Of a DNA stretch of 64,000 bases, positions 5,763 to 64,000 are shown piece by piece. Position 1 is the first letter of the stretch. Each line of letters begins with the position of its first letter. The notes below the pieces were generated by a model. That model was not told the origin of the DNA. It saw only the letters and a program-made list of their open reading frames with translations, and did no database searches. Origin of the DNA: Caenorhabditis remanei (taxonomy: Eukaryota > Nematoda > Chromadorea > Rhabditida > Rhabditidae); contig NC_071331.1 of assembly GCF_010183535.1 (NCBI RefSeq), forward strand, positions 12,276,001 to 12,340,000. The letters run 5' to 3'. The position numbers and the translations under genes are program-made.

Positions 5763-7534
5763 TTACTTTGCCCATGTGGCCTTCTCCTTCTTCTCTGTAT
5801 CTTCCTCGTCCATCGCGAATTCGTTCTTGTCGACAACCTTGAGTTGAGCACGGAAATCGACTTTGGCGGTCTCCTTCTTCTTCAGTTTGTCGAACTTTCC
5901 TTCGGTCTTCGACACCTTCTTCAATGTTGGTTTTACGCTGAAAATGTGATTTTATATGAGGGATATAGAGGGGAATCCCTTGTTTAGTTTCAATGTTTCA
6001 GTGAACTTCTAATTGGGAAGGCAAAGTTGGTTAGTTATTATGTGTACCGAAGAACATAGTCGAAATTAAAGTCAGGTGGTAAGAATAGAAAATACAGTTT
6101 GTTCTTTCACCAATATCTCTGTTTTAAAGTGGAAATATGAAAAGTTCTAGACTATAAAATTTGATATGTGTACATGCTTACAACAAATCATAATTTGAGA
6201 AGGAGATGTTGTTTCCAGTGCAATTAAACAGGTCCCAGTACAAGTTCTTATGAGAATCTCTCTAACCTTCAAACTGAAACAGCAACACAAATAGAAAAAA
6301 AACTAACAATTTTCCGCGAAGATCGTTGACAGCAATTGTCAACTCGTTGATCTCGAAATCCTTTTGACGAACGATGTAGCTGACGTCGTAGTTCTCCGAT
6401 TCCAACTCGATGAGTCTCTCACGGATCTCTTCGTAGACTGCCTCGAGGTCATCTGGAATTTAGATCTGTTTTGAATCAGTTTCCGTGTTCATATTAAACT
6501 AACCTTCATGATCCAAATCTGGAAGTGGAATGATTCTCTCTTGAAGGATACGTTGTCTCTCTTGCTCCTTCAACATCTGCTGTTGTTTCAAATCCTCAGC
6601 GGCCTTCATCATCAAAAGCTTACGAAGCTTCTTCTTTCTCTCTGGTGTCAAGAATCCTTTCTTGGCCTTCTTCATTCTGGAAGCCTCCTCGAGACGCTTA
6701 CGCACCTCTTCCTTCTTGCGCTCACGCTCCGCCATTTTGCGGGCCTAGAAAAATGAGTGGTTTCAGTGTAAGGGAACCAATGATTGGTTGAGGTGGAACT
6801 AAAAATGTGGATGTCGTGCAACCGAAAAATACTAGCAAGAGAAAAAGGAGACAACTGAGGTTTTGATTCAAGCATATATAGTTTGACGTTTCTCAAAATT
6901 GAAGAACTTTTCTGCTGTTTCAATTGATTATTATGTGAATAAATAATTTCCAAATGCTAGTAGATAACGCAGCCTGTCTATTTCTCTTTACCGACCTTGT
7001 GACCCGAACGGATCTAGACAATAAATGGCTTATAACTCTATCGGATCTTGACGTCTTTTTTGGCTCTAAAACTTTTTTCTTGAGAAAACGTACGGGCTCC
7101 ACGATACAAGAGGTTACTAATAATTCACTTTCAGCTTAGATCGAAATCCTCAGAGATTCAAGATAGTTATAAGTTAGAGGCTGTCCGTACCACAAGTATT
7201 CCTTGGACTCTTTTGGAGCTTGCTAACTTAGAATTTGTGTAAATGAATAAACCTAAAACTTAAAAAACAAAAAAAAACAAGAAACTGAGAAATTTTCCAC
7301 TGAAAGAACAAAGCGAACTGAAAATAACCAACAGAACTTCCACTTCTCGGACTTACTTCTGCATCCATATGAGGCGGATAAGGCTGCAACTCTCATACCA
7401 AATTTTCAAATTTCAAAACTAAAACCCATTTTTTCATTAGATTCCCTGTCGACCTAATCAGATGCATTCAGTATCCTCATTTTTAATTTCAAAAAATTTA
7501 GAAAACCAACCTCATCGGCGTCAACGTCACTCAT
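5763..7534 (-). CDS. tni-4: Troponin I
   Basis: Five exons on minus: 7511-7534, 7357-7383, 6504-6744, 6308-6452 and 5763-5937, giving 203 residues. The product starts MSDVDADE, continues PYPPHMDAE, then the basic helical troponin I core ([40 protein letters not shown]), [53 protein letters not shown] and a short acidic tail ending in EKATWAK. Troponin I is the inhibitory subunit of the thin-filament troponin complex and blocks actomyosin until calcium binds troponin C. The invertebrate inhibitory region is complete. The small exon 7357-7383 keeps phase and could be skipped. A trans-splice-like acceptor lies 8 bp upstream of the ATG. The paralogue name rests on remembered synteny with lam-1 in C. 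elegans; the protein family itself is certain. Confidence 0.93.
6276..6283 (-). promoter_or_regulatory. CTGTTTCA piRNA-type promoter core
   Basis: Exact octamer in troponin I intron 4, same strand as the gene. In C. elegans this core lies roughly 40 nt upstream of the first T of a 21U-RNA, so a product would start near 6236. Confidence 0.55.
6915..6922 (+). promoter_or_regulatory. CTGTTTCA piRNA-type promoter core
   Basis: Exact octamer in troponin I intron 2, antisense to the gene and followed by AT-rich sequence (ATTGATTATTATG). Confidence 0.55.
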
Positions 7535-7625
7535 GGTTTCACCTGAAAAAAGGAAAAATTAAATTTTGAAACATTGTTTTCCGAACTATTTTGAAAACGT
7601 CAAGCACAAAGGTAAGTAAGTAACG

Positions 7626-7633
7626 TGAAACAG
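7626..7633 (-). promoter_or_regulatory. CTGTTTCA piRNA-type promoter core
   Basis: Exact octamer about 90 bp upstream of the troponin I ATG, pointing toward the gene. Confidence 0.5.
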
Positions 7634-8640
7634 TAAAAAGATAAAGAGCAAAGAAAAGGGGAAAAATGAAAAATGTAGATTTCCAAAGAGGAGATTTTCG
7701 CTTCGAAGAAAAGTGAATTGCCCTCCCGCCGACTCTCTCTATTCCCCTCTGGTAAGTGTGTCTTTGTGGGGGAGCTTTTCAACTGAGAGACTACAGTTCT
7801 CGAAGAGATTCAGATGGATATTTGCGAAAGGAGCTCCCGCAAGATCCCTCCTCGAAGCCAACATCGTTAGGCGCCTCCTGCCTCTTCAACTACAGTATCA
7901 GTGAGAGAGTGTGGGAGAGAGGGAGACGCAGAGAATTCAGGGAAGCGAGTGCTTGAGAATATTCTCGGGAAAAAGTGTTGCAGGGAACAGAAAGAAACTG
8001 TAGAATGATGGTTTATTGAAAAAGAGAAAAAGTTGATTCTGGAATCTGGAATGACGTCACACAGATTGAATTTGAATTATTAAATCTAATAAAAACCATT
8101 CGAATGAATACAGTTTTCAAAAATTTATGAAACTGCAATTTTTAATTAGCTATGGTTTCAATTTATGTGATTTTCAAATTTCTTAAGATTCGGAACTATT
8201 TTTATTCAAAAATTAACTTTCAAACTGTTTCTCCTCAGAATTACGTCGTCCGCATACTCACTTTCTGAAAATATAGCTACTAGGTTAAGAACAAACTTTT
8301 CAAAGAGTTTACTCTCGCAACTCATGGAAATTGTTTGACTACCGTCTTTGTCTCTGTCCTTTTCTCAATTTTATCCGATATCCGGCTTCTTCTTTTCTGT
8401 CTCCGAATCTCTCTGTGCTCTGTGATCATCTTGGTAAAAAAAAGACAAAGAAAAGAGAAATGGTAGCGGGGGTGGAGGAGGAGAAGAAAGTACTTATCAT
8501 GCGGGATTTCTTTAGAGATGATAGAGGGAAAGAAGAGAAAGTTACTGAATGCATCGGAAGGAAATAGAATGGGAGTTCTAAAAATATATGTAGGAAGAAG
8601 TGGTGAAGGTTCGAAGATTCGACATAAATACTTCGTAGCC

Positions 8641-8694
8641 CACTGAAATAAAAACTAAGCACACTGAAATAAACTATGAGCACTGAAATAAAAC
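8641..8694 (+). repeat. Triplicated CACTGAAATAAA
   Basis: Three copies of CACTGAAATAAA occur within 55 bp, separated by 8-9 bases. Each contains an AATAAA-like string. No function is evident. Confidence 0.5.
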
Positions 8695-9999
8695 AGCAGA
8701 GTACCAAGTCTTGTTGCTGAAACTGCAGATGTTGTAAGATCATTATTGGTGAAATGTTTCCGAGTGAAAGCTTACAAGTGAAAGCTTACTATTAGTTAGC
8801 TTGTTAGCGCCTCAATGATGTTTTGCTTTTGTTCTGGAAGAATATTCCGGAAGGACAGCAGAAAATATCGTATAACCATGGTTCTGGACAAAAGATGAAC
8901 AACAGCAGGAAGAAAACTGTTGATGATGTCGGTCTCAAGTTCGTCCTTGGTTATGATGCCTCTCTTCCGTGGTTTCCTGGGACAATGCAAATCGAATTGC
9001 AGGGAAAACTCTGATCGTCTCCTATGTAAAACCAACTGAATATCAGAAAACCAAATTCTCAACTCTGCGTATCTTGAACATCTAGAGAGCCGGGCGTTGT
9101 TTTTATGAATTCCAGCTTTTCTCAAAAAAAAAACAATAAAATCATTTTAATTTAAATGCTTCAAAAGTTACGATGTTAAGTAGAAGAGCTCTTGGAGTTC
9201 TATTACGATTTCAATGAAATTATTCCACTTCGATCCTCCATACTTATTCTTTTTCTTCTTTTGCTTCCCTGCTTCGCCGCTGTTTACGATATTAAATTTC
9301 TTTCAGAATAGCAAGTTAATTCAGCTTTATGAATTTTCAGTAAACATGATAACAGATGACGGGTGTCTAATTAGAGCCATATTTTTAAGCCTCGATGGGT
9401 TTTGGCATCAAGATAGATTCAAAATTTATCTAAACGGAGGTTTCAGTCGATGTCAACATTGAGTGCCCAAGATTTTTCAATTGCACATTCCAGCGGCGAT
9501 TTCTATGTACTGAATAGTTTGAACAAATTTGAATGACATTTAATTAAAATATGGAAACATTAAATTTCAACTTACTTTTTTTGAAAGATATTCTGTATCA
9601 TTAACTTCGTATATGGATCGAGTGGTTATTCTATCAATACTTTTGATTGATCCAAATACCTAAGTTTTGTTCAAAGAATAATATTCCTCTTCCCTATATT
9701 CCTCTTCTCTCATTTCGTCATAATCCATCCACGTTTATCCCGAAAGATCAACTGATAAAACCTATTGTCTCTCATTCAAAAGAATTGCGATTATGGAGTC
9801 TAGAATTGACGAAGTTAATACAGATTTTTCTCCAGTTTCACCATGTATTCAGAAACTTTAGACTTGCAAACTTTTCAGTATTTTGCCTGGAGATACTTTT
9901 CGCTGATTCGAACGAACCATGATTAGGAAGCGAGATTAGTGTTCCGGCTAACACAGCATTATTAGAACATAAGATATTTATTGAGTATCATCTTGTATA

Positions 10000-10007
10000 T
10001 GAAACAG
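10000..10007 (-). promoter_or_regulatory. CTGTTTCA piRNA-type promoter core
   Basis: Exact octamer in the 5.4 kb intergenic region, followed leftward by ATATACAAGATGATAC. Confidence 0.6.
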
Positions 10008-10927: not shown

Positions 10928-10935
10928 CTGTTTCA
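10928..10935 (+). promoter_or_regulatory. CTGTTTCA piRNA-type promoter core
   Basis: Exact octamer in intergenic DNA, followed by ACAAGTTCTTGAATTC. Confidence 0.6.
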
Positions 10936-11306
10936 ACAAGTTCTTGAATTCTCGCATCTGATATTCTGTCCACGAAAACCATAATTTCAAATTCCTGATT
11001 CCGTCATTTTCTGCACTTTTCCAAAAGCTCTTCCCCCAAAAACAGGTGTTTGATAAGTATAGAAACCACGACAGAGTTCCGAAAAAATTCGAAAATTGAT
11101 CTCGTTAACTCCACCTGCAATGACACCAAAAAAGAAACATGTTGCCAGTTTCTCGTGGTCATCGAGGTGTTGTTAAACTGATATAATCATTTCATCATTA
11201 ATTTCAAGTCTTATATAACTTTCCATGAAAGGAGTAAATATTGGAAAAGGGGAATTTTGATATTGTTTATTATCGTTTCCACCTGTAATACTTCCCAGTT
11301 TCCGAC

Positions 11307-11314
11307 TGAAACAG
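11307..11314 (-). promoter_or_regulatory. CTGTTTCA piRNA-type promoter core
   Basis: Exact octamer in intergenic DNA, 372 bp from the plus-strand site at 10928 and oriented toward it. Confidence 0.6.
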
Positions 11315-12806: not shown

Positions 12807-12814
12807 CTGTTTCA
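12807..12814 (+). promoter_or_regulatory. CTGTTTCA piRNA-type promoter core
   Basis: Exact octamer 135 bp upstream of the G-alpha-like ATG, followed by CTATTATTTTATACAT. Confidence 0.55.
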
Positions 12815-12949: not shown

Positions 12950-14456
12950 ATGGGTTCAGCTGGTTCAGTAGATCGTGGTCCAATCAGAACTCTGGTTCTT
13001 GGGTGTATGGGTGCTGGAAAAACGTCTTTCATGCGACAAATGGTGTAAGTTCTAGTGAATGAAAATGACGAACAAGCTAGGAAGTGTCTCGAATAGTTGA
13101 GCAAGACATGAAACCGTATTCATTTAGAGTTGAAACCTCAGATACAATTAGAATTTTGTAACTTTTTTCAGCAAAAACCACACAAAACAAGTATGCCTTC
13201 GAAGAGAGTATTATGTCTACTGTGTTCAATTGAATCTTCTAAATGTGAGTTTAAAACTAACCATTGACAGATTCCTATTACGTACTCAGGTATTAGTCAG
13301 TACTCATTGAGTTATTGAAACGGAAAATTAATTTGGAAAAATCAGACTGAGTCGATTGTGTTCAAACGGACGTAGGAGAAAACATTACTTTCCGTTTCAG
13401 ACAATTGAAAAATCTACAGGAATTACTGTTAATTTTAGTACATACCTAAACCTTTTTGTTTCCAGGTATACAGAGAACTCAAAAATGTCTGCACAAGTAT
13501 GGAAATAGCTATTAATGAAGAACAAGTAGGTCTACTCCAAATCATCCTCAAACTCCACATCTCAATTTCAGAGCAAAGCATTCGACACCATTGACGAATA
13601 CCGACACAAAGAAAAATTCCCACAAAAAGTGATCGATTCGATCGTGGTTCTTCGCAACTCTCAACTTTTCGACTTATGTCGAATGAGACAAAGAATCCTT
13701 CCACTTCCACAGAATTACAACTTTTTCATCCAGAGAGCAGACGAGTTTATGCAGCAAGATTACAGTCCATCGGAGAATGATATCATGATGTCTTACTCAC
13801 AAACTTGTGGATTGTATATGGAAGAAGTCACTTGTCAAGGGTACAAGTTTGAGTGAGTTTATCCCAAAATCAGAGGAGAATTCTTGAATTCGATTCACTT
13901 TCAGACTTCTCGAAATGCCAGGCCATCACCTATGGCGTGCCAAATGGGCGCAACATTTCGACGATCCAGCTCTCGTCGTTTTCGTGATTGATCTCAGTGA
14001 ACTCTGTGATCCCGCTTTTTATAATGTGAGCTCTTTAGCTGAACTATAGTATCAATATTACAGTTTTTCAGCAAGGTCATCTCGAGAACAAGACAGTATC
14101 CGTCTTCAACTCCCTCGTCAATAATCCTGTTCTCGCCAATGTCCACTGGTTGCTGATTTTCAACAAGACCGACACATTCAATGATCATTCGGCTGGATTC
14201 GACTTCAAACGTCTCGCCAATCATTTGGATACTGGAGACAGTGCACGATCCTTTTATAGATCCCAATTCACGACTAAGCTCCCAAGAGGAAAATGCTTCG
14301 CTCACATGGTTTCACTTGTAAATGTGAGTAGATTAGAGATTTTTGGATTTGAAAAACAAAACTTACAATTTTCAGTTCAAAGACAGCCAAACCATCCTAA
14401 CCGATATGTTCAAAAGAATCGGGAAAATGCATCGCGAACGCCCAAATCTTACGTAA
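12950..14456 (+). CDS. Divergent G-protein alpha-subunit-like protein
   Basis: Seven exons: 12950-13044, 13172-13244, 13466-13525, 13572-13852, 13905-14025, 14072-14323 and 14376-14456, giving 320 residues (usual G-alpha about 350). The start MGSAGS keeps a myristoylation-type Gly2, but the N-terminal helix is missing. The P-loop is GCMGAGKT (residues 18-25, normally GAGESGKST). The helical domain is recognisable (PLPQNYNFFIQRADEFMQQDYSPSEND). Switch I reads SYSQTCG where typical members have the catalytic Arg in ARVKTTG. The DVGGQ motif is EMPGHH, so the catalytic Gln is His. NKTD, the guanine-specificity motif, is intact. The TCAT segment is lost and the C-terminus is MHRERPNLT. I infer it can bind GTP but hydrolyses it poorly or not at all. 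An acceptor at about 12934 lies just upstream of the ATG. It is tail to tail with the release factor. Confidence 0.85.
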
Positions 14457-14615
14457 CTGTGAAATTCTCTATGAAATCTCTATGAAATTACTGTATCTCA
14501 CTATGCATTTTACTACTTTAATTAATAAATTCATTAAAAAAACAAAAAGAAAACGAAACAATCTTTCAAATCCTAAAATGAAAACAAGAAAATCTATAGC
14601 TAATCGAAAAATAAA

Positions 14616-16234: not shown

Positions 16235-16898
16235 ATGACTCAAATCTCGGTGATTCTTTTGGCAGTTTTGTGTGTTTTGGTACCAACTTCATTGGCTGCA
16301 ATTCAATGTTGGGTTGGTCAAGAAACTGTTTCAAACGGGAGAAGATTACCGACTGAAATTGGTGGTCCTTATCAGTCAGGTGAGTATTTGTTTTAAAAAA
16401 GAGAGTAACTTTGCAATCATCACATTGAAAACAGTAATTTCCAGTGGATTAGTGCTGAAAAACATCTTCATTTTCGCTGATAAAAATGACACTTTTGTTG
16501 ATTTTCAGTTCAATGCAACGACGCCGACTATTGCTTCAACAGCTATGTGAAACGACACAAGCAAGGAGATGACAGTTACACAATCACTAAAAGCTGTGGA
16601 GAGACCGGAAAGTGTTTTGTGAGTTTTAAATTGAAAACAATACAAGAAAAATCGAAGCAGATGTGCTGGCGAGACGGGAATGTGCTTTTCAAAGGAAATA
16701 ATTTTCGAGCTAGTCGAGAAATTTAACACAACTCTGTCACTTTTAAAAATTATTTTTGGTTTTCAGGAAGATGGTTGCATGGGACCGGGAGACGAGAAAA
16801 ACTGCTGCTGCAGTGACAATTTGTGCAACTCGAGCAACGGTCTGACATATTCTTCAGCTGGAATTCTCATCATTCTCTCGCTTGTTTTCAGGCCCTAA
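16235..16898 (+). CDS. Ly6/uPAR-type GPI-anchored small protein
   Basis: Three exons, 16235-16379, 16509-16618 and 16767-16898, give 128 residues. A signal peptide (MTQISVILLAVLCVLVPTSLA) is followed by a single three-finger (LU) domain with ten cysteines, starting IQCW and closing with CCCSDNLCN, and then a short hydrophobic tail (SAGILIILSLVFRP) typical of GPI attachment. Related nematode proteins (the ODR-2/HOT group and others) sit on the outer face of neurons and other cells; the specific partner here is unknown. One exact CTGTTTCA lies inside exon 1 (16326-16333). Confidence 0.85.
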
Positions 16899-27384: not shown

Positions 27385-27392
27385 CTGTTTCA
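27385..27392 (+). promoter_or_regulatory. CTGTTTCA piRNA-type promoter core
   Basis: Exact octamer about 420 bp upstream of the lam-1 start, divergent from it and followed by ATATCAATTAATTTTC. Confidence 0.6.
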
Positions 27393-30399: not shown

Positions 30400-30407
30400 C
30401 TGTTTCA
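30400..30407 (+). promoter_or_regulatory. CTGTTTCA piRNA-type promoter core
   Basis: Exact octamer in intergenic DNA 420 bp past the CAMLG-like stop codon. Confidence 0.55.
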
Positions 30408-34238: not shown

Positions 34239-34389
34239 AGTGGAGCATTGTGTCATAAAAAGTTTTCTATTCAAAAACTCAAGAGAAAATTTCAATGTAT
34301 TCAATCTAAAATATATTCACTCGATAAGTTCTGCGATTTCTCATTGCCGGATCAGTTTTAAATACTCAGAAGCTGTGAAGAAGCCGTAT

Positions 34390-34397
34390 TGAAACAG
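34390..34397 (-). promoter_or_regulatory. CTGTTTCA piRNA-type promoter core
   Basis: Exact octamer 150 bp beyond the second Ly6 gene, oriented back toward it. Confidence 0.55.
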
Positions 34398-35324: not shown

Positions 35325-35703
35325 TCCACCACCTCTTGGAGCTCCTCCTGCCGACTGCTCCTTAATCCGTCGTGTCCGTTTCATGCTTTTCGGATGGAGG
35401 TATCAGGAGAGGAAGACGAGGTTCACACGACACTTTCTAGTACTTCAGTCGCTTGGCTTCTTCTTCTTTTCACTTTTTCAAAAGATAAGGACTTCCGAAT
35501 CTTTGACCTAGAACTTTCTTCTCGTTTTGTTTTCTGTTCTAGCCGTCATCTAGAAGTGAGTCATGAATGCTAAGTCAACTAAGGTAGTCGATCCAAAATC
35601 TAATTCCGTCTAGTGTTGTGTAAACCAAACGATAAGTGTTTTCAAACCTTTTATCCAATTGTTATTGACTTGAATTCATACAAACAGACTGTTGAAAACT
35701 GTC

Positions 35704-35711
35704 TGAAACAG
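35704..35711 (-). promoter_or_regulatory. CTGTTTCA piRNA-type promoter core
   Basis: Exact octamer in intergenic DNA upstream of long soc-2, followed leftward by GACAGTTTTCAACAG. Confidence 0.6.
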
Positions 35712-49100: not shown

Positions 49101-52100
49101 CTCTCTGTCTTCCAGATACATACTTCGGTCTCTACCACATCTATCCATATTTCTCCCTTTTCGTCCATATTCTTGACACAATCAATCTGTTGGGGGTATT
49201 TCCCTGGTGACTCATCTCTTTTTTCGATATTTCTTTCTCTATTCCATTCTTTCTCGTTCTCTGTGTGTATGTTTGTGGTGTAATAGGCAACATTTTTTGG
49301 CCTAACACTTCAGTTTTTGTGTCCTTCTCCACACACACCCATAAAACAATTTTTGGGCTTTTTCAGATTCTTGAAATCTAGAATAAGAGCAGAGAAATGA
49401 GGAGGAGAGAAGGAATGAGAGGGTTGTTGAGATTTTCATTTGAGGAGATATGTAATGGGGAAGAAGATAATGTATGGAATGAGACTATCAGGTTTTAGAA
49501 CCGATTAGGTTTTTAGGAGCACTGTAGAGCTACGATTATTCAGCCTATCGATGTTTTAAAAGTTTTCAAATTTCAGTTTCACGGGTCTGCTTTTCCCAAA
49601 TAGAAATAGTCAGACCGATGTGTAATTCCAGCATTCTGTAGGACAATTACGTTCTTTGATGAAAATCTTAATAGTTTTGGATCCTAACGTTGCACACTTT
49701 TGACTTCAGTTTCACTTTTTCTACTTCAGTTTTTTCGGGAATATAGAATTAATGTTTTCTGTGATTTCGCATTGCGTAAATTGTTCATTTTGGAATTTTA
49801 TGTTTTGGTCAATCGAAAACTCTCTGGTACCTGCAAGCTCCGAAATTACAGTTTCAGAAACTTTATGAGTATTGAGATGAGACTAACGAAACTATTTTTC
49901 CATGAAAACTTAATACTATAGACAGAACATTTAATATTCTGGCTTGCACCCATTTCATCAACAAGTGTGTTTTCCCAGCACTGTACCTAAATATTCTTGA
50001 AGAGTACGTACTATTTTCCAAAATTTTACCGTAATCATGTCTATTTGGAGTTCTTCGGTTTCTAGGTATAGTAACTGGCATTTAACAAATTGTTTCTGAA
50101 GCTTAAAGTTACTTTTTTATAAATTAGTTTAATAGAAGTTTTGTTGAGAAATAGTATTAGTTTGATGCATAAGTTTCTTTCTTTTTTGAAGGTGTGACTT
50201 TGGCCCCCGGTCTCTAAGCGATAAGGTTGTTTTTCCACCCAAACTTTTTTGCATTTTTATGACCTCTTTAGTGGCTAACATATAACATTTCAAGTTTGTT
50301 CCTAGATAGTCCGCTCGTGAAAACGATGGCTTTTTTGATCGCCAACCAAATGCCTGTTTTGGAAAGTTTTTTTGATTTTTGTCGCATTGGTATCGAAATG
50401 ATAAGATCTTCATAAAAAATTGAACGCAATTTATAGAATAAGATTTGATCTTGTTATCTCATTTTAGTTTTCAGTCGGAATGTTGAAAACAAAAAAGTTG
50501 TGATAAGACGATCGACAGCAACGAGAAACCATGGTTCAGCTGGGTTCAAACAGATTACAGAAATATTTGAGAGAATATTTGTACCAAACTATTTGTAAAA
50601 GTTAGAGGATAACATGAGTAAATTATGTCTTAAAAAAGTTTATGACAAAGCCATCAAATTAAGTGATAAAACATGGCTGATAAATTTCTTATGATTTTTG
50701 CGCTTTCGAGAAATTTTGTGTACTAGACCTGAGTGGAGTCTAGGTCTCTTCTGAACGCACACAAATAAGTCTGAATTATTTTATTGTAAGTAATCAATAG
50801 TACACACATTGATCTAAAAATGTGCAAAATATCTAGTGGATTGCTTTAGAGGTAGGAGCAGTAGGCCTCATCAAACTCAAAAATCAAGTGATTTTGATGA
50901 TGTTGACTTCGGGCTTCCTGCGAAAAATGACAAATGATGTGAATATTGGAAACAAAGTAAATTTAAAAAACATCAATGCCTACTTTACTCAATAACCAAC
51001 ATTTCTACCAATTTCCCTATTTACAGTTGAAGAAATATGGAAAATACTCGCACACTCCTAAATTGCTGATCCTAACCTTTCATCAGGGACCCGCACTGAA
51101 CTATCGTTGCTTAGTTGGAATGCCTTTATTTGCTTTTTATAAATAACTTTTTTTGCTTGTTTTAATTCTGAATCGCTCACCCATTCTTATCAGCATTTTC
51201 TAGGAAAAAAATGGAGACGAAAAATGGTACCAAAAAAGGGTTCCTCAAGTGTTTTGACGTGCCTCCGGCTGAAATTAGGTGGATGGTGGACGTCAAGTCA
51301 CAGGTATAATCACAATGAGTTACAGGTACTAGCCAACAATGTTTCTTATTATGTGAACTATTAGTCTTCTAGAAATTTCATACCAAAAATTACCTAAAAA
51401 AAGAAAGAAACTTATGCATCAACCTAATACTTGACGTGATTTATCGGAAATCATTAAAAATTGTAGATGAGCTTACAGCTCCGAGATTCTAGTCTTAGAA
51501 CATCACAAAGTATCTGACCCTGGCTGTTCTTACTTCAATCCTTCTGATCCCACCTTGTACAACTGATAAGCTTCAGAAAGAATCTATTTTGGCCCCTCCG
51601 ATTTGCAGATTTCAATCCTCAATGATCATCAAAAACAAATTTTAAAATTAGTTCGTTGTTGAGTGTCTCCGTCTCTCTTCTCTCTATCCTTTCTTCCTCT
51701 TCTTCGATGAGATAATTTTATCGCCTCGAGCTTCTTCTTCATCTTTCTTTTCTCTTTTGCTCATTTCTAAATATCCTTGCTACTCCACTCATTTACACAT
51801 CACACCAACCACATGAAATAAATTCTGGAGGCTTTCTCTCGGAGGAGCAGAAGCTTCTGCTCTTTTCTCCCGGAGAGAGAGAGTGTGAAGGCTCCCAATT
51901 TCCTCTCTACCTCTGCGTCTATTCTCCTGAAGAATCTCTTGTTCTGGTCATTTCCTGCCCATCCTTATCAGTTGACACATTTTCATTTCCATTCCTATTT
52001 TCTCCTCGTTTCCACTCGTCACTTTCTTCGATTCGACATCATATATATTCCAATCTATCTTCTCTATTCTCCTTATCATTTTAACTATCAATCGTCATCA

Positions 52101-55100
52101 ATACGTCTTCATTTGTCTCCCCCACGTTCCCATCTAGTCAATATTCTGAATTCAATTAGACCCTGGATCACGCGCACGGAGGCAGTAGCAAAAGTGTCTC
52201 ATCGGCCCGACTACCGGACGCGTTGGCACTGTGTCTGAAGGCGACGCGAATGGAAACGTCGAAAGAGTTCGAATTCCGGCCGGCCAAGGAGACGTCACGC
52301 TCCAAAAGTCCCGGTGGAATCGTAGGGAGACTCTCGAATTTTGCTCGAAATAAAGCGAGACATTCGTTGAGTGAAAAAGGATCGAATTCGGTTGGAGGAA
52401 GTGGTGGAAGCGGGTTTGATAAACCAAGAAAGGTAGTTAAAAATATACTATTTTTATTTAGAAATCAAGAAATGAGTCCTGATTCTTGATAAATTGTCTG
52501 TGGAAAATGCAAAACTGAGTGAAAATTTATCTGTTTCAAAATTATGTTGTAATCTGCCTAAAATAAACAATAACAGTCCGAAAATGCGTACTTCCCACCA
52601 GAAAATCACAAGCGAAACTTTTTCCCAATGTATCTCGAATTGAACAACTAAACGAAAAAAATATGCTCAATAATTTACCAGAAAAACAGTAAATTCATTC
52701 TCAAATTTATCCATTCATTCTGTCCCCCAATATTTCATTTTCTTCCAGGACCTGCTGAAAGAATTTCACAAATGCAAGGAAGCACAAGACCAACGATTGG
52801 ATTTGTCCTCGATCGAAATCACGAGTATCCCATCACCGATCAAAGAGCTCACACAGCTGACAGAGCTCTTTTTGTATAAGGTTTGTGAGAGAGGATTTTT
52901 GAATTTAAATACTGAAAAATTAATTTTAAAAATCACGGATTCAAACCGTTAAGAACTTTTTCATCATATTTTTCTCAAAAAATTAAAAAAAAGAGTAGTT
53001 TCGAAAAGATCCGGTAAAAGTTTCAAGAAGCTTTACTTTGCTCGCAAATTTCTGACAAAAGTTTTCTGAAAGTTTTAAGAGTTTTCCAAAATGGATATGG
53101 CCGTATTTCATAATGAAATATTTCGGGCAGTGCATAAATTAAAGAATTGTTGAAACTGCGATTTTTGAAAAATACAGTTCTCGAAAGAAAGTTGCTATAA
53201 AGTGGTTGTTATGCTCTGTTTCTACAACTGCGCTCCACAAAAACTAAAGAAATTTTATCAGAAGCGATAGAACTAGTCCTTCAATTCAAAAAGCCTATAA
53301 TGTTATTTTTCTACCCCGAGACAGTAACTTCAATTCCAAAAGTTTGCCCTCTTTCCCTCCATCTCATTGACCTACCCACCTGATCGTTCTCTTATCATAA
53401 AATCTCAATTCGTTATCACTTCGAAATCGAGATTAATGATTGCAAACATGATGCACCCACGCTTTTTCTTGTTTCTTCTCTGACAACAGGAAGACAACAA
53501 AAAACTGGTTCTTGATGAGAGAGGGAGGAGAAGATTCACATTTCCGGTTATCATAAATTATCAATTTTGAAAAGAAAGAGTAGATGATCAACACGAAAAC
53601 TTCACAACTTCTCATTTCAGAACAAACTGACATGCCTGCCAACTGAAATCGGACAACTCGTGAATCTCAAAAAACTAGGACTCTCTGAAAATGCTCTCTC
53701 TTCTCTACCGGACTCTCTCGCCTCTTTGGAATCACTTGAAACTCTCGATTTGAGGCATAACAAACTGACAGAAGTGAGTTTTTTTAGAGCCAGAGGGATA
53801 CAATTATTTTATGTGTAAAATTCCAGGTTCCATCGGTGATTTACAAGATTAATTCACTGGAAACATTATGGTTGAGGTATAATCGAATCGTAGCCGTAGA
53901 CGAACAAATCGGAAATCTTGTCAAACTGAAAATGTTGGATGTTCGAGAGAATAAAATTCGAGAACTTCCATCTGCAATCGGCAAGCTGACGTCGTTGGTG
54001 GTGTGTCTTGTTTCGTATAATCATTTGACACGTGTTCCAGAAGGTACGGCGTTTTTTTTTGGGAAATTAATTATCTAAAAAAACGAACTGGTTTTTTAAA
54101 CTTTCTATCTCACAAGAAAAATGAAAGATGCAGTAAAATCCCAAATAAAAATTACTATGAGGAAATATTAGAACTAAAAAATTTCGGTTTCCAAACGATA
54201 ATTACTAAGATTTTTAGCAGTAACCCGCAGTTAAGCGTTTCACTTATTTCAGAAATCGGTGAATGTCTATCCCTGACTCAACTGGATCTCCAACACAATG
54301 ATCTATCCGAACTACCGTACTCCATCGGAAAACTGACGAATCTCGTTCGAATTGGAATCCGTTATAACAAGATTCGATGTATTCCAAGCGAATTGGAAAG
54401 TTGTCAGCAATTGGAGGAGTTCATTGTGGAGAGTAATCATTTGCAATTGTTACCGGTACGTTTTTAATAAAGGTTTCAGCACAAATTTGATATTTTTCTG
54501 TATTTCAAAATTATTCGAAACAGAAAACTGTAACCATTCTTCTTTTTTCAGCCAAATCTTCTGACAATGCTTCCAAAAATCCACACTGTCAATCTATCAA
54601 GAAATGAATTGACTGCATTCCCAGCTGGTGGACCTCAACAATTTGTATCTACAGTCACTATCAATATGGAACATAATCAGATTTCGAAGATCCCAATCGG
54701 AATTTTCTCGAAAGCCACACGATTGACAAAACTGAATTTAAAGGAGAACGAGCTGGTCTCGCTGCCTCTTGGTATGGTTTTCTATTTAAGAGTGTCAACA
54801 ATTTAGCTGCTAGTAATAGACCTAATGACATTTCTGACATTAAAAAACTTATGAAATTATTTTGCAGATATGGGATCATGGACATCAATAACCGAACTGA
54901 ATCTCTCCACAAATCAATTGAAAGTGCTTCCCGAAGACATCGAGAAACTTGTCAATTTGGAAATTCTCGTCCTATCGAATAATCAACTGAAAAAGCTTCC
55001 GAATCAGATTGGAAATCTCAAAAAACTCCGTGAGCTGGATCTCGAGGAGAATGAATTAGAGACAGTGCCAACTGAGATTGGATTCTTGCAACATTTGACG

Positions 55101-55749
55101 AAATTATGGATTCAATCGAATAAGATTATCACACTTCCAAGATCGATTGGAAATTTATGTTCACTTCAAGATTTGAGACTGGGAGAGAATAATTTGACAG
55201 CGATTCCGGAAGAGATTGGTTAGTTTTTTAAAAAAGAAATAAGACCCGAATGAACTGGAAATTAGATTGATCGATCGTAGCCTGAAATTTTTGATAAATT
55301 AAAAAGATGTACATAGTCAGTTTAAGAAAATCTAGAAGATGGACAACTTATGTTGTTGATGAGGAATTATTTTAAAATTAGAAATGAAATAATCGTTTTC
55401 ACTTTTTAGTTTCAGAGTACTTATAAGAATGTTCATAACTTTCGTCCGTTTTTCAATAAAAACCATGAAACAGAAAATTTATTTTTTTGATTTCAAAATA
55501 CTCTAACTCAATCAATTCCATTTTCCAGGTCACCTCGACTCATTGAAATCTTTGTACCTCAACGACAACTCATCTCTTCACAATCTTCCATTCGAACTCG
55601 CTCTCTGTCAATCCCTTGAAATCATGTCAATCGAAAACTCTCCATTATCTCAAATCCCACCAGAAATCACTGCTGGTGGACCATCACTTGTGATACAGTA
55701 CCTCAAAATGCAAGGACCTTATCGTGGAGTCGTGATGACGGGGCAATAA
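37126..55749 (+). CDS. soc-2: soc-2/SHOC2, predicted long isoform
   Basis: Two upstream coding exons join the soc-2 body in phase 0: 37126-37395 ([16 protein letters not shown] to NGSLPDLME) and 41639-41773 ([20 protein letters not shown] to [10 protein letters not shown]), then 52160-52432, where an AATTAG acceptor opens a frame reading [20 protein letters not shown] through to the short-isoform Met. The predicted protein is 724 residues: a 165-residue Ser/Arg-rich, low-complexity extension on the 559-residue repeat protein. The extension has several RRxS-type phosphorylation-like sites (RRRFS, LRRFS). A TTTTCAG acceptor near 37100 suggests trans-splicing just upstream. Introns of 4.2 and 10.4 kb separate these exons; the larger holds a mariner-like element, a hAT-like element and four CTGTTTCA octamers. 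Linkage of the two exons to soc-2 is inferred from phase and splice sites, not transcripts. Confidence 0.65.
37422..37429 (+). promoter_or_regulatory. CTGTTTCA piRNA-type promoter core
   Basis: Exact octamer 27 bp after the donor of the first long-isoform soc-2 exon. Confidence 0.55.
39596..39603 (-). promoter_or_regulatory. CTGTTTCA piRNA-type promoter core
   Basis: Exact octamer in soc-2 intron 1, forming a divergent pair with the plus-strand copy 42 bp to its right. Confidence 0.6.
39645..39652 (+). promoter_or_regulatory. CTGTTTCA piRNA-type promoter core
   Basis: Exact octamer, the right half of the divergent pair with 39596. Several YRNT tetramers lie 30-42 nt downstream. Confidence 0.6.
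40815..40822 (+). promoter_or_regulatory. CTGTTTCA piRNA-type promoter core
   Basis: Exact octamer in soc-2 intron 1, followed by TTCAACACATCAATG. Confidence 0.6.
41867..41874 (-). promoter_or_regulatory. CTGTTTCA piRNA-type promoter core
   Basis: Exact octamer in soc-2 intron 2, 94 bp after the exon at 41639 and antisense to it. Confidence 0.6.
42214..42221 (-). promoter_or_regulatory. CTGTTTCA piRNA-type promoter core
   Basis: Exact octamer in soc-2 intron 2, same orientation as and 347 bp from the site at 41867. Confidence 0.6.
46987..46994 (-). promoter_or_regulatory. CTGTTTCA piRNA-type promoter core
   Basis: Exact octamer in soc-2 intron 2, 51 bp left of the target duplication of the small hAT-like element. 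Confidence 0.6.
47053..47126. mobile_element. hAT-type miniature element (74 bp) with 8-bp target duplication
   Basis: The termini CATGCTTGTCA/TGACAAGTATG are near-identical to those of the element in lam-1 intron 1, and identical 8-bp duplications GTTGGTAG flank it (47045-47052 and 47127-47134). The interior keeps a GGGCCGGGCCG block and a palindromic AAAAATCAGG/CCTGATTTT. It is a much shorter member of the same family. Confidence 0.88.
47375..47382 (+). promoter_or_regulatory. CTGTTTCA piRNA-type promoter core
   Basis: Exact octamer in soc-2 intron 2, divergent from the site at 46987 with the hAT-like element between. Confidence 0.6.
50157..51427. mobile_element. Mariner-like element, 1271 bp, degenerate
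   Basis: Inverted termini TTAGTTTGATGCATAAGTTT and its near complement (GAAAGAAACTTATGCATCAA then CCTAA) are flanked by TA duplications at 50155-50156 and 51428-51429. The length is that of a full mariner. Near the right end a short plus-strand stretch reads [20 protein letters not shown], resembling a mariner N-terminus, but the remaining coding region is broken, so it is a dead or non-autonomous copy. It belongs to a different subfamily from the remnant at 987. Confidence 0.8.
52250..55749 (+). CDS. soc-2: soc-2/SHOC2 leucine-rich repeat scaffold, 559-residue form
   Basis: Eight exons: from the ATG at 52250 to 52432, then 52749-52880, 53621-53773, 53827-54043, 54253-54455, 54552-54771, 54868-55218 and 55529-55749. 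The product is 559 residues. After a Ser/Lys-rich N-terminus ([20 protein letters not shown], then [18 protein letters not shown]) come about twenty 23-residue leucine-rich repeats of the LxxLxLxxNxLxxLPxxIxxL type, from [18 protein letters not shown] to [17 protein letters not shown]2 forms a complex with MRAS-GTP and PP1 that dephosphorylates Raf, promoting Ras-ERK signalling; in C. elegans soc-2/sur-8 acts downstream of EGL-15 FGFR and LET-60 Ras. The frame is open upstream of this ATG into the longer isoform, so either internal initiation or an alternative promoter would give this form. Confidence 0.97.
52531..52538 (+). promoter_or_regulatory. CTGTTTCA piRNA-type promoter core
   Basis: Exact octamer in the 316-bp soc-2 intron after the 52160-52432 exon, sense to the gene. 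Confidence 0.55.
55466..55473 (-). promoter_or_regulatory. CTGTTTCA piRNA-type promoter core
   Basis: Exact octamer in the last soc-2 intron, antisense to the gene. Confidence 0.55.
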
Positions 55750-56645
55750 TCTCCAGAAATCTACCGTAATTCATTTGAAAAACCGTTTCTTCGCCTACGG
55801 GTTCCCCATTCTTTTCCCTTCAACTTCTCCCCTTTTTTGACCCGTTTTGTTTCAACGAAATCCATTTTTTTCTCTCTGAAATTGTCTCAAAATTTTGAAA
55901 ATATCAATCCATATGGTACGTTTCAACTTGTGTCCTCAACTCGTTTGTTTTATTTTTCTCTTTTTTTAAATGTTGAATTTTTATATTATTTTATTATTAT
56001 TATAATTCCTAATTGTTTCATAAAAAGAATCCATCCACTTTCCTCTTTTCCCCGCTGCATTTCCCTCCCATCCCCCATCTGAAAATGTCTAAATTCTCTT
56101 CTCAATTCTCTGTCCCAGTTTTTCGAATAATGAACATTTTACAAATCTTTTCTCTCTGCAAACTTTGCACAAACAGACACAGCTGCCACGTCATAAACCG
56201 CCAATGAAAAACATGTGAGCAGTCATTAAAAAGAGTCAAAAGAATACAAACACAGATGTTTTACAACAATGTGAACATTATTATTCACTAGTAGTCTCTC
56301 TTCACTTTTCAGGTGGCAGTCTACTCAAATATCAGACTGTTTATAAGTTAAGTCATCCAAACCAGCTATGTCTTCAGCCCACCGTTTTTGATTTTCAATC
56401 CGTTCTAATTTCTGAATGAATGAAAATTACTTATTATATTCATTGCCATCAGTAAACGGAAGGTAACAACAAACATATTGAAGCCAGTTGATTCTTGTTT
56501 CTATCCTTCTGAATCTTTCGTGAACTTGCCTAGAGTTCTTTTCCATGCAATCTGCTTCTTGTAATTTTTATTGGTTCAAAAAACGTTTCACACCTCTAGT
56601 TTTTCACAATATCAGATGATCATTTTGCAGACATTGTCTAGAGTC

Positions 56646-56653
56646 TGAAACAG
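56646..56653 (-). promoter_or_regulatory. CTGTTTCA piRNA-type promoter core
   Basis: Exact octamer followed leftward by GACTCTAGACAATGTCTGCA; related to the site at 57157. Confidence 0.65.
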
Positions 56654-57156
56654 ACATGAACTATTTCCAGCGATAATTACAACTGCCACATTCTGCTCAG
56701 AAATTCTGTTCTTTTTGTGAAGCTTCGAGTATTCTTTCATGCATATCAAAAGCATTTTTCCAGAAGTTCTAAAACTGAAATGATTTTTCCTCATTTTGAG
56801 ACTGTTTTTTCGTAGTTTAAATAAAGACTGGTCAAGTCAGTCACACTGTTCCCTTTCCTCCTTTTTCTCTTATTTGCAGAATTGAGTTCGTTTGAATTAG
56901 GTGCCGAAATGATTTCATTTTCACATACAAGAAAATGACTTTGTCAACGAGCTGTACGATTTTAATTACTTTTTTGGACGTCATCGACAAATCTTGCATC
57001 CAACAAGTTGGATGATGTCACAGGACTCACCACTACACGATTCGCCATTAAACTTTTGTTCTCATTGAACTCTAGTCACAATCAAAATTCTTCATTCCCA
57101 TGTTCTTCTGAGTTATGAATATCGAAACAAGAATTTGCAGCCATGTGTCTAGTAAC

Positions 57157-57164
57157 TGAAACAG
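57157..57164 (-). promoter_or_regulatory. CTGTTTCA piRNA-type promoter core
   Basis: Exact octamer followed leftward by GTTACTAGACACATGGCTGC, similar to the copy at 56646. Confidence 0.65.
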
Positions 57165-58162: not shown

Positions 58163-58170
58163 TGAAACAG
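58163..58170 (-). promoter_or_regulatory. CTGTTTCA piRNA-type promoter core
   Basis: Exact octamer in intergenic DNA downstream of soc-2, third in a row on the minus strand. Confidence 0.6.
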
Positions 58171-60855: not shown

Positions 60856-60951
60856 ACTAGATTTAAATCCTAGACGTCAAATGAGGATTGAGGATCTGAA
60901 AAGATGGAGAATCTGAGTATAATTATCTGTTTCCTTTTTTTGTTGGAAAAT

Positions 60952-62225: not shown

Positions 62226-63171
62226 CCTTCCCACCTATTCATTTTAAAGAAGTTTAAATAGTGCATTGAACCTTATGAAGTCGAGACATTGGTTGATATA
62301 ACCAAAGTGGTTGATATAACCGATATGAAACAGACTTTTTTGAGAATGACAATTATCGTTTTGGTACGGTAGAATTCATAATAATGTGTTAGACTGATAT
62401 TTAGCTGTATCCTCTTCACCAATCAAGAGTCTAGAATACCAGTTTTCAGAAAAAACCTCTATTTTGAATCTCAGAAATCTTGTGTATCAGTAAAGGTCAT
62501 TTGTCTCAATCAAACACCAAATCACCCCCTAAAAGATCATGTTTTTGACAGACTGAGCCTCCAGTAAACATGTCTTTGGATACTCGAGTAAATTCATATT
62601 ATTCATTCCCATTTTTTGTCATTTTTTGTCAACTACCACCCATCGAAAAAAAGCAAAGCATCCGTCATATTCTTCCTTCTTCTCCTTCTTCTTATTTCTC
62701 GCCCTTCTTCACTCCAATATGCTCGTCCGTTCTCCTTCATTTCTTCTTCTCCTTCTTCTTCTTTTTCTATGAGTTATATAGCCTTTCTTCTTCTTTTTTT
62801 TTTTTCATTTTTCACTTAAGCTCCGCCTACTAGTCCTCCTTTTTCTCTATTAGAGAATCTCATCTTTTTTTTTTGAAAGTAGTGTTCCTACCAGTCGTTT
62901 CCCATTGTTCTAATCAGATTACCATGTCTCTTTGGTTGAAGAAGAGCAACGGCAGAGAACGGAGAAGAAATATTATAAACAGGCTCTTTTCTTTTCTCTC
63001 CCGTGTTGTTTTTTCGGTGTTTTTTGTCCTCCTAATTGCTCTTTCTCTGTCTTTATTTCCTTTCTTCTCTCTATCTATCCTCGGTTCCCGCCGCTAAGCC
63101 ACGCCTCTTTTTTCGGTTGAAGACGTAGAGCAGAAGAAGTTGAGGACACCGCCGTCGCATCACTCCTCCCG
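62226..63171. other. Intergenic region and upstream region of the last gene
   Basis: Pyrimidine-rich from 62680 to 62870 and around 63000. One CTGTTTCA lies at 62326 (minus). The 5' UTR of the next gene probably begins after 63080. Confidence 0.5.
62326..62333 (-). promoter_or_regulatory. CTGTTTCA piRNA-type promoter core
   Basis: Exact octamer just outside the right end of the foldback element, pointing into it. Confidence 0.55.
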
Positions 63172-63306
63172 ATGAACTTCACAACAATCTCTGATTCTTC
63201 TTCGATTCTCACATCGACGATTACGTCAAGCAGCTTGCTGGAATCCACTGCTGCCGTACCTGATAGCGATGATTCGGATTTCTATGAACTGTCTCCTGTA
63301 GAATTG
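63172..63306 (+). CDS. First coding exon of a gene leaving the window
   Basis: The ATG at 63172 opens 45 codons ending exactly at a GTGAGT donor in phase 0. The peptide is Ser/Thr-rich with an early N-glycosylation sequon ([20 protein letters not shown]), then an acidic stretch (PDSDDSDFYELSPVEL). Lacking a signal peptide but rich in Ser/Thr with a sequon, it resembles the extracellular N-terminus of a G-protein-coupled receptor. As I recall, the neighbour of soc-2 in C. elegans (AC7.1) is a tachykinin-like receptor, which would fit. That assignment is inference from remembered synteny. Confidence 0.5.
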
Positions 63307-64000
63307 GTGAGTTGGATTCTATTCGTGGATTATTTTAATTGTGATCAGTTACTGTTTCAATGGGGTTTCAAAGCTTGTCATCCCATTTGTATCTTGCTAA
63401 AAGACGCTTAACCCAATTAAAACTGATTGAGATCTTAAGAAAACAAATATCTGGTTATTGAAGTGGCGAAAATTGAATATTTATGTATGGATAGAGATGT
63501 ATGCTATTTGATAATTATCCGAAACCAAATTTCAGTAAAACGAGCAGGTTAAAGTATTTCGAAGCTTATTTCAACACCCATTTTGAAACTAAAAGAATGC
63601 GGCCATTTTATCGAATTGGGATGAAAAGGTTGATCAAAACGACTTCAGCTTTATCATGATCTCGGTCAGACATTAACTTTGTTACCGCGTTGTTCGGCAG
63701 TTTTTGCCCCTACGAGCATCTACCGAGCAATAACAAACTACTAATATTTTTCTATTTTTTAATAAAATAATTTCAAACAGTATTTTTAGTTTTAAATTTT
63801 TCGAATTTTCGAATTTTCGAAATTTCCGATAATGTTTTTAACACCCCCGCCCACCTTCTATAATTAATTAAAAATATTATTACCCAACACAAAATTAATA
63901 TCGAAAGCATCTTCTTCCTGTAGCCGTCATCTATTTACCCAAGAAATCCATCATGGAAAATCTAAAATTCAGTTTTTTCTGATGTCTTCTTTTTCTAATT
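63307..64000 (+). other. Intron of the last gene, to the window edge
   Basis: AT-rich with one CTGTTTCA at 63352. No second exon was recognised before the end of the window. Confidence 0.45.
63352..63359 (+). promoter_or_regulatory. CTGTTTCA piRNA-type promoter core
   Basis: Exact octamer 45 bp after the donor of the last gene's first exon. Confidence 0.55.

Follow-up and report, generated by a model that had tools for sequence, protein, structure and literature searches.

Putative type-I 21U-RNA genes and two apparent core promoter forms on chromosome IV of Caenorhabditis remanei

Introduction

The closest described counterparts of the sites reported here are the type-I 21U-RNA genes of C. 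elegans, which combine a core octamer with a YRNT start signal some 42 nt away (T of YRNT to octamer centre), occupy both strands of chromosome IV and prefer non-coding sequence; all of these features recur in C. remanei. Clusters of this type are further defined by 21-nt, 5'-U, 3'-methylated products that associate with PRG-1, and by residence in regulated chromatin carrying H3K27me3. A peak at 42 nt was reported by Beltran et al. in each species studied, and the two C. elegans chromosome IV clusters are given as 2.5 and 3.7 Mb (PMC6436959). The C. elegans core is written CNGTTTCA or NNGTTTCA in papers (PMC7884074), so that variation of the core is not in itself new in that species. In C. briggsae, piRNA clusters occupy chromosome IV at 0.02-7.1 and 13.0-15.0 Mb, plus chromosome I, and promoters of the right cluster are described as having strong A/T-rich flanks and a flanking motif of their own (PMC9683057). 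Pristionchus-type loci likewise show a Ruby-like motif and 21U products, but are dispersed across autosomes, in introns of germline genes (PMC6436959), while type-II (motif-independent) 21U-RNAs share the YR initiator preceding the U. The 21U-RNAs of C. remanei are previously known, and resemble those of C. elegans according to a review (PMC6468775).

Enrichment of the octamer on chromosome IV

The window, that is the whole stretch of DNA analysed, comprises 64 kb of C. remanei PX506 chromosome IV (12.28-12.34 Mb). The exact word CTGTTTCA (CTG form) occurs in it 30 times, 13 on the plus and 17 on the minus strand. This recount agrees with the 28 + 2 matches of a first-pass annotation, those at 4490 (-) and 16326 (+) included, except that the first non-exon site, placed at 6276, starts at 6275; the 2-3 matches expected there by chance were an underestimate, first- and second-order Markov models giving 4.7 and 6.2, respectively. 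Among 840 anagrams CTGTTTCA ranks first in the window (30 against a mean of 2.83), and the runner-up ACTGTTTC, with 17, overlaps with it in seven bases. The core CTGTTTCA/CNGTTTCA is thus well above background, as in type-I clusters. The related words CAGTTTCA (CAG form) and CCGTTTCA (CCG form) are present at 18 and 10 sites, for a total of 58 C[TAC]GTTTCA sites.

In the whole genome 19,000 copies of CTGTTTCA (9.3 per 64 kb) were counted, versus 6,781 of the reversed word. The off-IV control (fifteen 10-kb stretches, taken at set positions of the five other chromosomes) gave five copies in its 150 kb, equivalent to 2.1 per 64 kb, and the predicted excess over other chromosomes was borne out: 0.47/kb in the window versus 0.033/kb (p=1e-11), the word being about 14 times rarer off IV. 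An exact 14-mer around the octamer maps to C4 at 46 of its 50 genome places and to C1 at two, versus two of nine on C4 for a word with one core letter changed. The occurrences of one exact word put the left domain at about 1.2 to 13.2 Mb, which makes it longer than the C. elegans clusters; unlike Pristionchus-type loci, the C. remanei sites are concentrated on IV, clustered at the megabase scale as expected of Ruby-motif genes. A cluster on chromosome I, as in C. briggsae, did not show up in the C. remanei samples, three 10-kb C1 stretches having no octamer.

The flanks of the 48 window CWGTTTCA sites included one similar pair only (non-overlapping windows), so these are unrelated sequences; such diversity, together with the use of both strands, is typical of a type-I cluster, and the shared flanks of a repeat family are absent from the window. 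Shared flanking sequence was observed outside it, in stretch L012.

The sites tend to avoid coding sequence. When stop-to-stop ORFs of at least 100 aa, masking 38.8% of the window, are taken as a proxy, 9/58 C[TAC]GTTTCA sites fall wholly inside them (p=1e-4); the avoidance of exons proposed in the first pass therefore stands as a tendency. Of the two matches given as exonic, 4490 falls within an ORF that encodes an F-box-associated domain; 16326, in a 98-aa ORF with no Pfam match, is at most a putative exonic site.

Spacing to the start signal and predicted units

Offsets were measured from the octamer start to the T of YRNT, +46 being equivalent to 42 nt from the octamer centre. In the window, YRNT stands at +46 at 13/30 CTG sites (background 7%, p=5e-8) and at +45..47 at 22/30 (an estimated 66% above background). 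The same signal accompanies the other forms, with +46 at 8/18 CAG sites (p=5e-5) and +45..47 at 13/18 CAG (p=4e-5) and 6/10 CCG sites (p=0.008). Taken together, 41/58 C[TAC]GTTTCA sites have YRNT at +45..47 (background 22%, p=7e-15) and 17/58 do not. The spacing to YRNT is decisive: the CTGTTTCA sites are very probably type-I 21U-RNA promoters. Because CAGTTTCA and CCGTTTCA pass the same sequence test, a count of the exact word, as made in the first pass, is too low: of the 41 predicted units in the window, nearly half (19) have a CAG or CCG core. The idea of one unit per octamer is in keeping with 22 of 30 CTGTTTCA sites, the remaining ones having no YRNT at +45..47 (Table 1).

Across the left samples, YRNT was found at +46 at 31/97 C[TAC]GTTTCA sites (p=9e-12). 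On the right arm it was found at 38/124 CTG sites (p=3e-14), with 85/124 at +45..47 (p=1.5e-27); in right-arm stretches obtained once the spacing had been found, +46 was occupied at 30/103 CTG sites (p=5e-11). In small samples of the left domain the signal is weak: CTG sites of L018 and L024 gave 2/11 at +46 (p=0.25) and 7/11 at +45..47 (p=0.01), and C[TAC]GTTTCA sites of L031, L032 and L038 gave 9/20 at +45..47 (p=0.05). In the 15 off-IV stretches, 2/19 C[TAC]GTTTCA sites had YRNT at +45..47 (background 21%). A further set of off-IV CTG sites numbered 16 that could be scored, 11 from eight C1 loci chosen for containing the word; none had YRNT at +46 and six had it at +45..47 (p=0.08).

Table 1. 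Predicted 21U-RNA units in the window and CTGTTTCA sites with no YRNT at the expected distance
Core	Core position	Strand	Predicted unit	Predicted 21U	T offset	Remark
CTGTTTCA	6275-6282	-	6217..6282	6217-6237	+45	
CTGTTTCA	6915-6922	+	6915..6981	6961-6981	+46	
CAGTTTCA	8128-8135	-	8068..8135	8068-8088	+47	
CAGTTTCA	8718-8725	-	8659..8725	8659-8679	+46	
CAGTTTCA	9833-9840	+	9833..9899	9879-9899	+46	
CTGTTTCA	10000-10007	-	9941..10007	9941-9961	+46	
CTGTTTCA	11307-11314	-	11249..11314	11249-11269	+45	
CCGTTTCA	13316-13323	-	13257..13323	13257-13277	+46	
CCGTTTCA	13392-13399	+	13392..13459	13439-13459	+47	
CTGTTTCA	19757-19764	+	19757..19823	19803-19823	+46	
CCGTTTCA	23794-23801	-	23736..23801	23736-23756	+45	inside laminin gene span, doubtful
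CAGTTTCA	24490-24497	+	24490..24556	24536-24556	+46	inside laminin gene span
CCGTTTCA	25905-25912	+	25905..25971	25951-25971	+46	inside laminin gene span
CTGTTTCA	27385-27392	+	27385..27452	27432-27452	+47	
CAGTTTCA	29041-29048	-	28983..29048	28983-29003	+45	
CTGTTTCA	31494-31501	-	31435..31501	31435-31455	+46	
CTGTTTCA	34390-34397	-	34331..34397	34331-34351	+46	
CTGTTTCA	35704-35711	-	35644..35711	35644-35664	+47	
CCGTTTCA	36394-36401	+	36394..36460	36440-36460	+46	
CAGTTTCA	36990-36997	+	36990..37056	37036-37056	+46	
CTGTTTCA	37422-37429	+	37422..37488	37468-37488	+46	
CAGTTTCA	38006-38013	+	38006..38072	38052-38072	+46	
CTGTTTCA	39596-39603	-	39537..39603	39537-39557	+46	back-to-back with unit 39645..39711
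CTGTTTCA	39645-39652	+	39645..39711	39691-39711	+46	
CAGTTTCA	41309-41316	-	41250..41316	41250-41270	+46	
CTGTTTCA	41867-41874	-	41808..41874	41808-41828	+46	
CTGTTTCA	42214-42221	-	42156..42221	42156-42176	+45	
CAGTTTCA	45485-45492	+	45485..45550	45530-45550	+45	
CTGTTTCA	46987-46994	-	46928..46994	46928-46948	+46	
CCGTTTCA	47265-47272	-	47207..47272	47207-47227	+45	
CTGTTTCA	47375-47382	+	47375..47442	47422-47442	+47	
CAGTTTCA	49574-49581	+	49574..49639	49619-49639	+45	
CAGTTTCA	49707-49714	+	49707..49773	49753-49773	+46	
CAGTTTCA	49849-49856	+	49849..49916	49896-49916	+47	
CTGTTTCA	52531-52538	+	52531..52597	52577-52597	+46	
CAGTTTCA	53151-53158	-	53092..53158	53092-53112	+46	
CTGTTTCA	55466-55473	-	55408..55473	55408-55428	+45	
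CTGTTTCA	56646-56653	-	56588..56653	56588-56608	+45	
CTGTTTCA	57157-57164	-	57098..57164	57098-57118	+46	
CTGTTTCA	62326-62333	-	62268..62333	62268-62288	+45	
CTGTTTCA	63352-63359	+	63352..63418	63398-63418	+46	
CTGTTTCA	4490..4497	-				in F-box-associated-domain ORF; no YRNT at +45..47; probably chance
CTGTTTCA	7626..7633	-				no YRNT at +45..47
CTGTTTCA	10928..10935	+				no YRNT at +45..47
CTGTTTCA	12807..12814	+				no YRNT at +45..47
CTGTTTCA	16326..16333	+				in 98-aa ORF; no YRNT at +45..47
CTGTTTCA	30400..30407	+				no YRNT at +45..47
CTGTTTCA	40815..40822	+				no YRNT at +45..47
CTGTTTCA	58163..58170	-				no YRNT at +45..47

Two apparent core forms along chromosome IV

At core position 2, T, A and C stand in the ratio 57:29:23 in the sampled left/central stretches, a difference from C. 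elegans, and 160:6:1, nearly only CTG, in dense right-arm patches, where CTG is preceded by A at 146/159 sites. These counts suggest a left/central core of the form C[T/A/C]GTTTCA and, in the denser right-arm patches, almost exclusively ACTGTTTCA[A/G]; two further stretches matched predictions written down in advance. Octamer density is about 0.5 per kb on the left versus 3.1 per kb on the right arm, the latter figure leaving out the octamer-free stretch L027; no octamer was found in right-arm stretches L035 and L036 either. A pyrimidine at +17 is present at 45/55 left versus 91/159 right CTG sites (p=1e-3), a tentative element in that it was discovered in the same left data on which it was tested. 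The A/T content of predicted right-arm 21U segments is 0.65-0.70, rising to 0.71-0.73 downstream. A GC-richer 21U ahead of AT-richer DNA is the pausing signature looked for in type-I clusters; in the left domain the contrast is faint. A long left cluster and a right cluster with A/T-rich flanks are also found in C. briggsae; no account of two core forms in C. remanei was found in the literature searched, nor, in the portions of it consulted, any mention of a relaxed core in the C. briggsae left cluster.

Interpretation and alternative explanations

Motif enrichment, concentration on chromosome IV, occurrence on both strands and the preferred YRNT distance directly support the reading of the sites as core (Ruby) motifs that belong to autonomous type-I 21U-RNA (piRNA) genes, located in a left/central chromosome IV domain, a reading which from these sequence features has a probability of roughly 0.93. 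The proposal that the window is part of a chromosome IV 21U-RNA cluster is thus sustained by its location, the off-IV contrast and the start signal at the expected distance. Transcription of each unit would begin two bases upstream of the T, at the R of the YR dinucleotide, and yield a short capped precursor; this would be trimmed to a 21-nt RNA with a 5' U, which may then be bound by PRG-1 in the germline.

That the octamer is a product of base composition, of a dispersed repeat or of words typical of introns (TTTCAG at 3' splice sites) is very improbable. CTGTTTCAG does contain the splice-acceptor word, a G follows 4,936 of the 19,000 genome octamers, and TTACTGTTTCAGA is found at several places within a transposon-like inverted pair; against this, the word leads all its anagrams, becomes scarce off IV, has unrelated flanks in the window and keeps its distance to YRNT. 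It is only slightly less improbable that the sites bind forkhead proteins or some other transcription factor, or serve as an unrelated DNA signal, and are enriched on IV with no start site at a fixed distance: a CTGTTTCA-containing probe was bound in vitro by forkhead proteins (Cecere et al., cited in PMC3597512), but a plain binding site is not expected to produce the YRNT peak seen at one offset, +46, in both the left domain and the right arm.

For the two core forms, a tentative explanation, short of an even chance, is that the two domains use two promoter codes. The left/central one, window included, would be C[T/A/C]GTTTCA with no fixed preceding base and perhaps the +17 pyrimidine; the right-arm one would be the strict ACTGTTTCA[A/G] with A/T-rich flanks. 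Different variants of a factor might read the two codes, so that two piRNA repertoires come under separate regulation (e.g., according to sex, stage or temperature); the split itself may date back to the ancestor of C. briggsae and C. remanei. It is somewhat less likely that the left/central region is an old, decaying piRNA domain with many silent remnants, its loose core having decayed from the right-arm form instead of being a second functional code. The lower left density, relaxed core, weaker flanks and, in some left samples, weaker YRNT signal are in line with decay; the YRNT retained at CAG and CCG window sites is not, and the +17 pyrimidine, tentatively commoner on the left, is an element that decay would not create.

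Predicted piRNA genes can be placed, from sequence alone, on the chromosome-scale C. remanei assembly, one chromosome of which is suggested to hold two promoter dialects. C. remanei has males and females. In C. elegans, a single core base is reported to shift the balance of expression between males and females (PMC3597512). In C. briggsae, the left and right clusters on IV are reported to differ in temperature response (PMC9641977), which, together with the flanking motif of the right cluster, allows the form of the promoter to be linked with the regulation of piRNAs in a testable way.

Gene context

With regard to possible synteny with a C. elegans piRNA cluster, the genes for a release factor, CGI-121 and laminin beta follow one another in the window; their C. 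elegans orthologues are presumably the W03F8 genes at about 5.1 Mb of chromosome IV.

Octamer Excess and Start-Signal Spacing

The window contains 30 exact copies of CTGTTTCA, the Ruby core of type-I 21U-RNA promoters (hereafter CTG core), 13 on the plus and 17 on the minus strand of its 64 kb, which bears out the total counted in the first-pass annotation. Chance and base composition are both excluded as the source of the octamer by Markov models, which predict 4.7 and 6.2 copies, and by an anagram control in which the octamer ranks first of 840 with its 30 copies against a mean of 2.83. In the whole genome (130,466,896 bases scanned) 19,000 copies were found vs 6,781 of the reversed word, while fifteen 10-kb stretches placed at set positions across the remaining five chromosomes contain 5, so that the window has the higher frequency (30 per 64 kb vs 5 per 150 kb; p = 1e-11). 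The pentamer GTTTC by itself is a weak marker, with 5.1 copies per kb in the window and 3.9 off chromosome IV. A repeat family as the source of the window sites was rejected by comparison of their flanks, and an Rfam search of the window at gathering scores returned zero matches, so no known snRNA gene accounts for the motif.

If the sites are 21U-RNA promoters, a start signal is expected at a set distance. In 52 scorable chromosome IV sites, pooled from the window and three further stretches of that chromosome (L012, a duplicated stretch, included), the start signal YRNT, at whose T the predicted 21U-RNA would begin, peaks at +46 from the octamer start (37% vs about 8% background). Measured from the octamer centre, the T is 42 nt away, which matches the spacing between motif centre and start T given for nematodes (PMC6436959). 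For the CTG sites of the window, YRNT lies at +46 in 13/30 (background 7%, p = 5e-8) and at +45..47 in 22/30; in two right-arm stretches fetched only after the spacing had been found, the values are 30/103 (p = 5e-11) and 68/103, respectively. The signal is weaker in the small sample of left-domain CTG sites beyond the window from L018 and L024 (2/11 at +46, 7/11 at +45..47), and another small left sample, of C[TAC]GTTTCA sites (L031, L032, L038), gives 9/20 at +45..47 (p = 0.05). Off chromosome IV, none of 16 CTG sites, 11 of them from eight loci chosen because they hold the word, has YRNT at +46, and 6/16 have it at +45..47 (p = 0.08). The expected spacing, found both in the window and in the right-arm stretches, thus supports, at the level of sequence, the earlier proposal that the window is part of a cluster of putative 21U-RNA promoters.

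Core Variants

One-letter variants of the core were screened for the same spacing, and two that the first-pass annotation had overlooked share it: CAGTTTCA (CAG), with 18 copies in the window and YRNT at +45..47 in 13/18, and CCGTTTCA (CCG), with 6/10. Taken together, the C[TAC]GTTTCA sites of the window have YRNT at +45..47 in 41/58 vs 22% by chance, and an estimated 62% of them stand above background, corresponding to about 36 units per 64 kb; in 15 stretches off chromosome IV the figure is 2/19. Further variants in the window are ATGTTTCA (YRNT at +46 in 5/17, p = 0.003) and C[AT]GTTTCT (at +45..47 in 12/22, p = 2e-4). The largest gap between CTG sites in the window (19757-27385), which spans the laminin gene, still has three sites with YRNT, of which one is CAG and two are CCG. 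Core variation is not new in kind, since the C. elegans core is already spelled either CNGTTTCA or NNGTTTCA in papers (PMC7884074); among the papers accessible to a word search, none combines Caenorhabditis, piRNA and CAGTTTCA.

Layout along Chromosome IV

The window, at 12,276,001-12,340,000 of chromosome IV (C4), lies within the low-recombination centre of that chromosome, given as 8.6-17.1 Mb (PMC10461856, Table 1). The exact word TTACTGTTTCAATT has 46 of its 50 genome places on this chromosome vs 2/9 for the control word TTACTCTTTCAATT; the first CAG 14-mer tried was uninformative (11 places, 3 on IV). The word TTACTGTTTCAGA has 328 genome places, the first 100 of which comprise 24 on chromosomes I-III and 76 on IV. 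Among these listed matches, 75 of the 76 lie at 1.16-13.15 Mb and one at 18.58 Mb, with none for 5.4 Mb after 13.15 Mb, which indicates that a left domain some 12 Mb long is followed by a gap and then by right-arm patches; the window stands near the right end of the left domain. In the gap, the CAG word TTACAGTTTCAGA has two places, and L034 (5 kb, at 15.0 Mb) contains one CTG and one CAG site (YRNT 0/2). As TTACAGTTTCAGA has 59 of its 91 places on IV, 33 of them before 14 Mb and 24 beyond 18 Mb, CAG is also present on the right arm. The right domain is patchy, given that no octamer was found in L027 (19.0 Mb), L035 and L036; at 25.0 Mb, L028 has 0 CTG and 3 CAG sites (YRNT 1/3).

Two Probable Promoter Forms

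Left samples (the window, L018, L024, L031, L032, L038, L039; 104 kb) and right samples (L029, L030, L033, L035, L036, L037, L040; 45 kb, the site-free L027 being left out) were compared in pooled tests, outside which L027, L028 and L034 were kept. The 25 scorable C[TAC]GTTTCA sites of L012 (1.00-1.01 Mb) were removed from these tests because 63% of its 10 kb is self-similar; the stretch remains in the first spacing and +17 analyses, in the variant screen and partly in the pooled peak. The ratio CTG:CAG:CCG is 57:29:23 on the left vs 160:6:1 on the right (Fisher p = 3e-18). An A directly precedes CTGTTTCA in 24/55 left vs 146/159 right sites (p = 1e-12), this base being preset for 1-2 sites each in L029-L033 and L039, which were chosen for containing a listed TTACTGTTTCA word, as L035-L038 and L040 were not. 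The core ratio also differs in stretches not used for discovery (9:4:8 in L031, L032 and L038 vs 21:2:0 in L033, L035, L036 and L037; p = 9e-4), and L033 (18.94 Mb) is intermediate for the preceding base (A in 5/9). Predictions were noted beforehand for four stretches, and the two of them that were fetched both agreed, the left numbers being small: L039 (left) has 4/11 CAG or CCG, a preceding A in 3/6 and YRNT at +45..47 in 6/10, and L040 (right) has 1/37, 35/35 and 23/36, respectively.

Base composition is an unlikely cause of the difference, since GC ranges are alike (31-34% in four dense right stretches, 31-38% in left samples). The two forms may be two codes or one young and one decaying domain. 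A pyrimidine at +17 from the octamer start, present in 45/55 left vs 91/159 right sites (p = 1e-3), would tentatively favour two codes, the caution being due to its having been first noticed in left data. In left-domain sites this pyrimidine is mostly T, and its position, about 27 nt upstream of the predicted start, is tentatively TATA-box-like. The window itself is an ordinary case of a known cluster type, and the new lead is the difference at chromosome scale.

Comparison with Relatives

C. remanei is reported to produce 21U-RNAs with C. elegans-like features, 2-3 times more of them (PMC6468775). The right-arm form resembles the promoters of the C. briggsae cluster at IV 13-15 Mb, in whose piRNA genes the Ruby motif is described as accompanied by strong A/T-rich motifs (PMC9683057); the left and right IV clusters of C. 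briggsae are reported to differ in temperature response (PMC9641977). Among the papers listed, titles and abstract openings on the C. remanei piRNAs, 21U-RNAs or Ruby motif contain neither a mapping of these genes on a chromosome-scale assembly nor a mention of two promoter forms, which, with subscription papers mostly outside that scope, is weak evidence for the novelty of both.

Neighbouring Genes and Repeats

The genes and elements recognized are collected in the table. In C. elegans, lam-1, a CGI-121 gene and W03F8.3 are neighbours at about 5.1 Mb of chromosome IV, a location that would fall inside the piRNA cluster of that species. The cluster is given as 4.75-7.5 Mb on IV (PMC9683057), and W03F8.3 is listed as mitochondrial-translation related (PMC9192688).

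Features in the window (window positions) and paired words elsewhere in the genome (C1-C4, chromosomes I-IV)
Feature	Position	Strand	Basis
ORF of 299 aa, mariner-type element	1059-1955	-	Transposase_1 match, E=4e-28
F-box-associated ORF	4429-5358	+	Pfam
G-alpha pieces	13530-14482	+	Pfam, under Pfam's own cut-off
PCRF/RF-1 release factor	14619-15908	-	Pfam
CGI-121	17547-17915	-	Pfam
Laminin beta	20264-26991	-	Pfam
CHCH ORF	32590-32844	+	Pfam
Leucine-rich repeats	53788-55220	+	Pfam
TTACTGTTTCAGA pairs	C1:13,966,599; C2:4,123,004, 12,884,566, 12,890,506; C3:3,127,618; C4:6,164,639	opposite	

The paired TTACTGTTTCAGA words lie 479-486 bp apart among the matches listed and resemble terminal inverted repeats of a small motif-bearing transposon. 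L012 has about 25 CTG or CAG promoter-like sites, many of which sit in duplicated blocks that are roughly 70-90% similar, so that new piRNA genes may have arisen there by local duplication. Six TTACAGTTTCAGA words on one strand, spaced 2-3 kb, are found at C4:10,254,037-10,266,868, perhaps a repeated block with a CAG core, and L036 (20.00 Mb) has 11 copies of TTGTTTCA in 5 kb, possibly a tandem repeat, with zero CTGTTTCA. The window octamers at 56646 and 57157 (minus strand, 511 bp apart) are 82% alike over 45 nt around the motif and not beyond, reflecting either convergence or the duplication of a short segment. Positions 25982-26207, which fall within the laminin gene, contain G+C-rich CGGCCCGG repeats (7 of the 8 window copies), and a similar G+C-rich run is present in L018. 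Positions 59717-61166 are occupied by local repeats some 105 bp long in both direct and inverted orientation; they are rich in TCTGTATA and hold 15 of the 16 window copies of that word.
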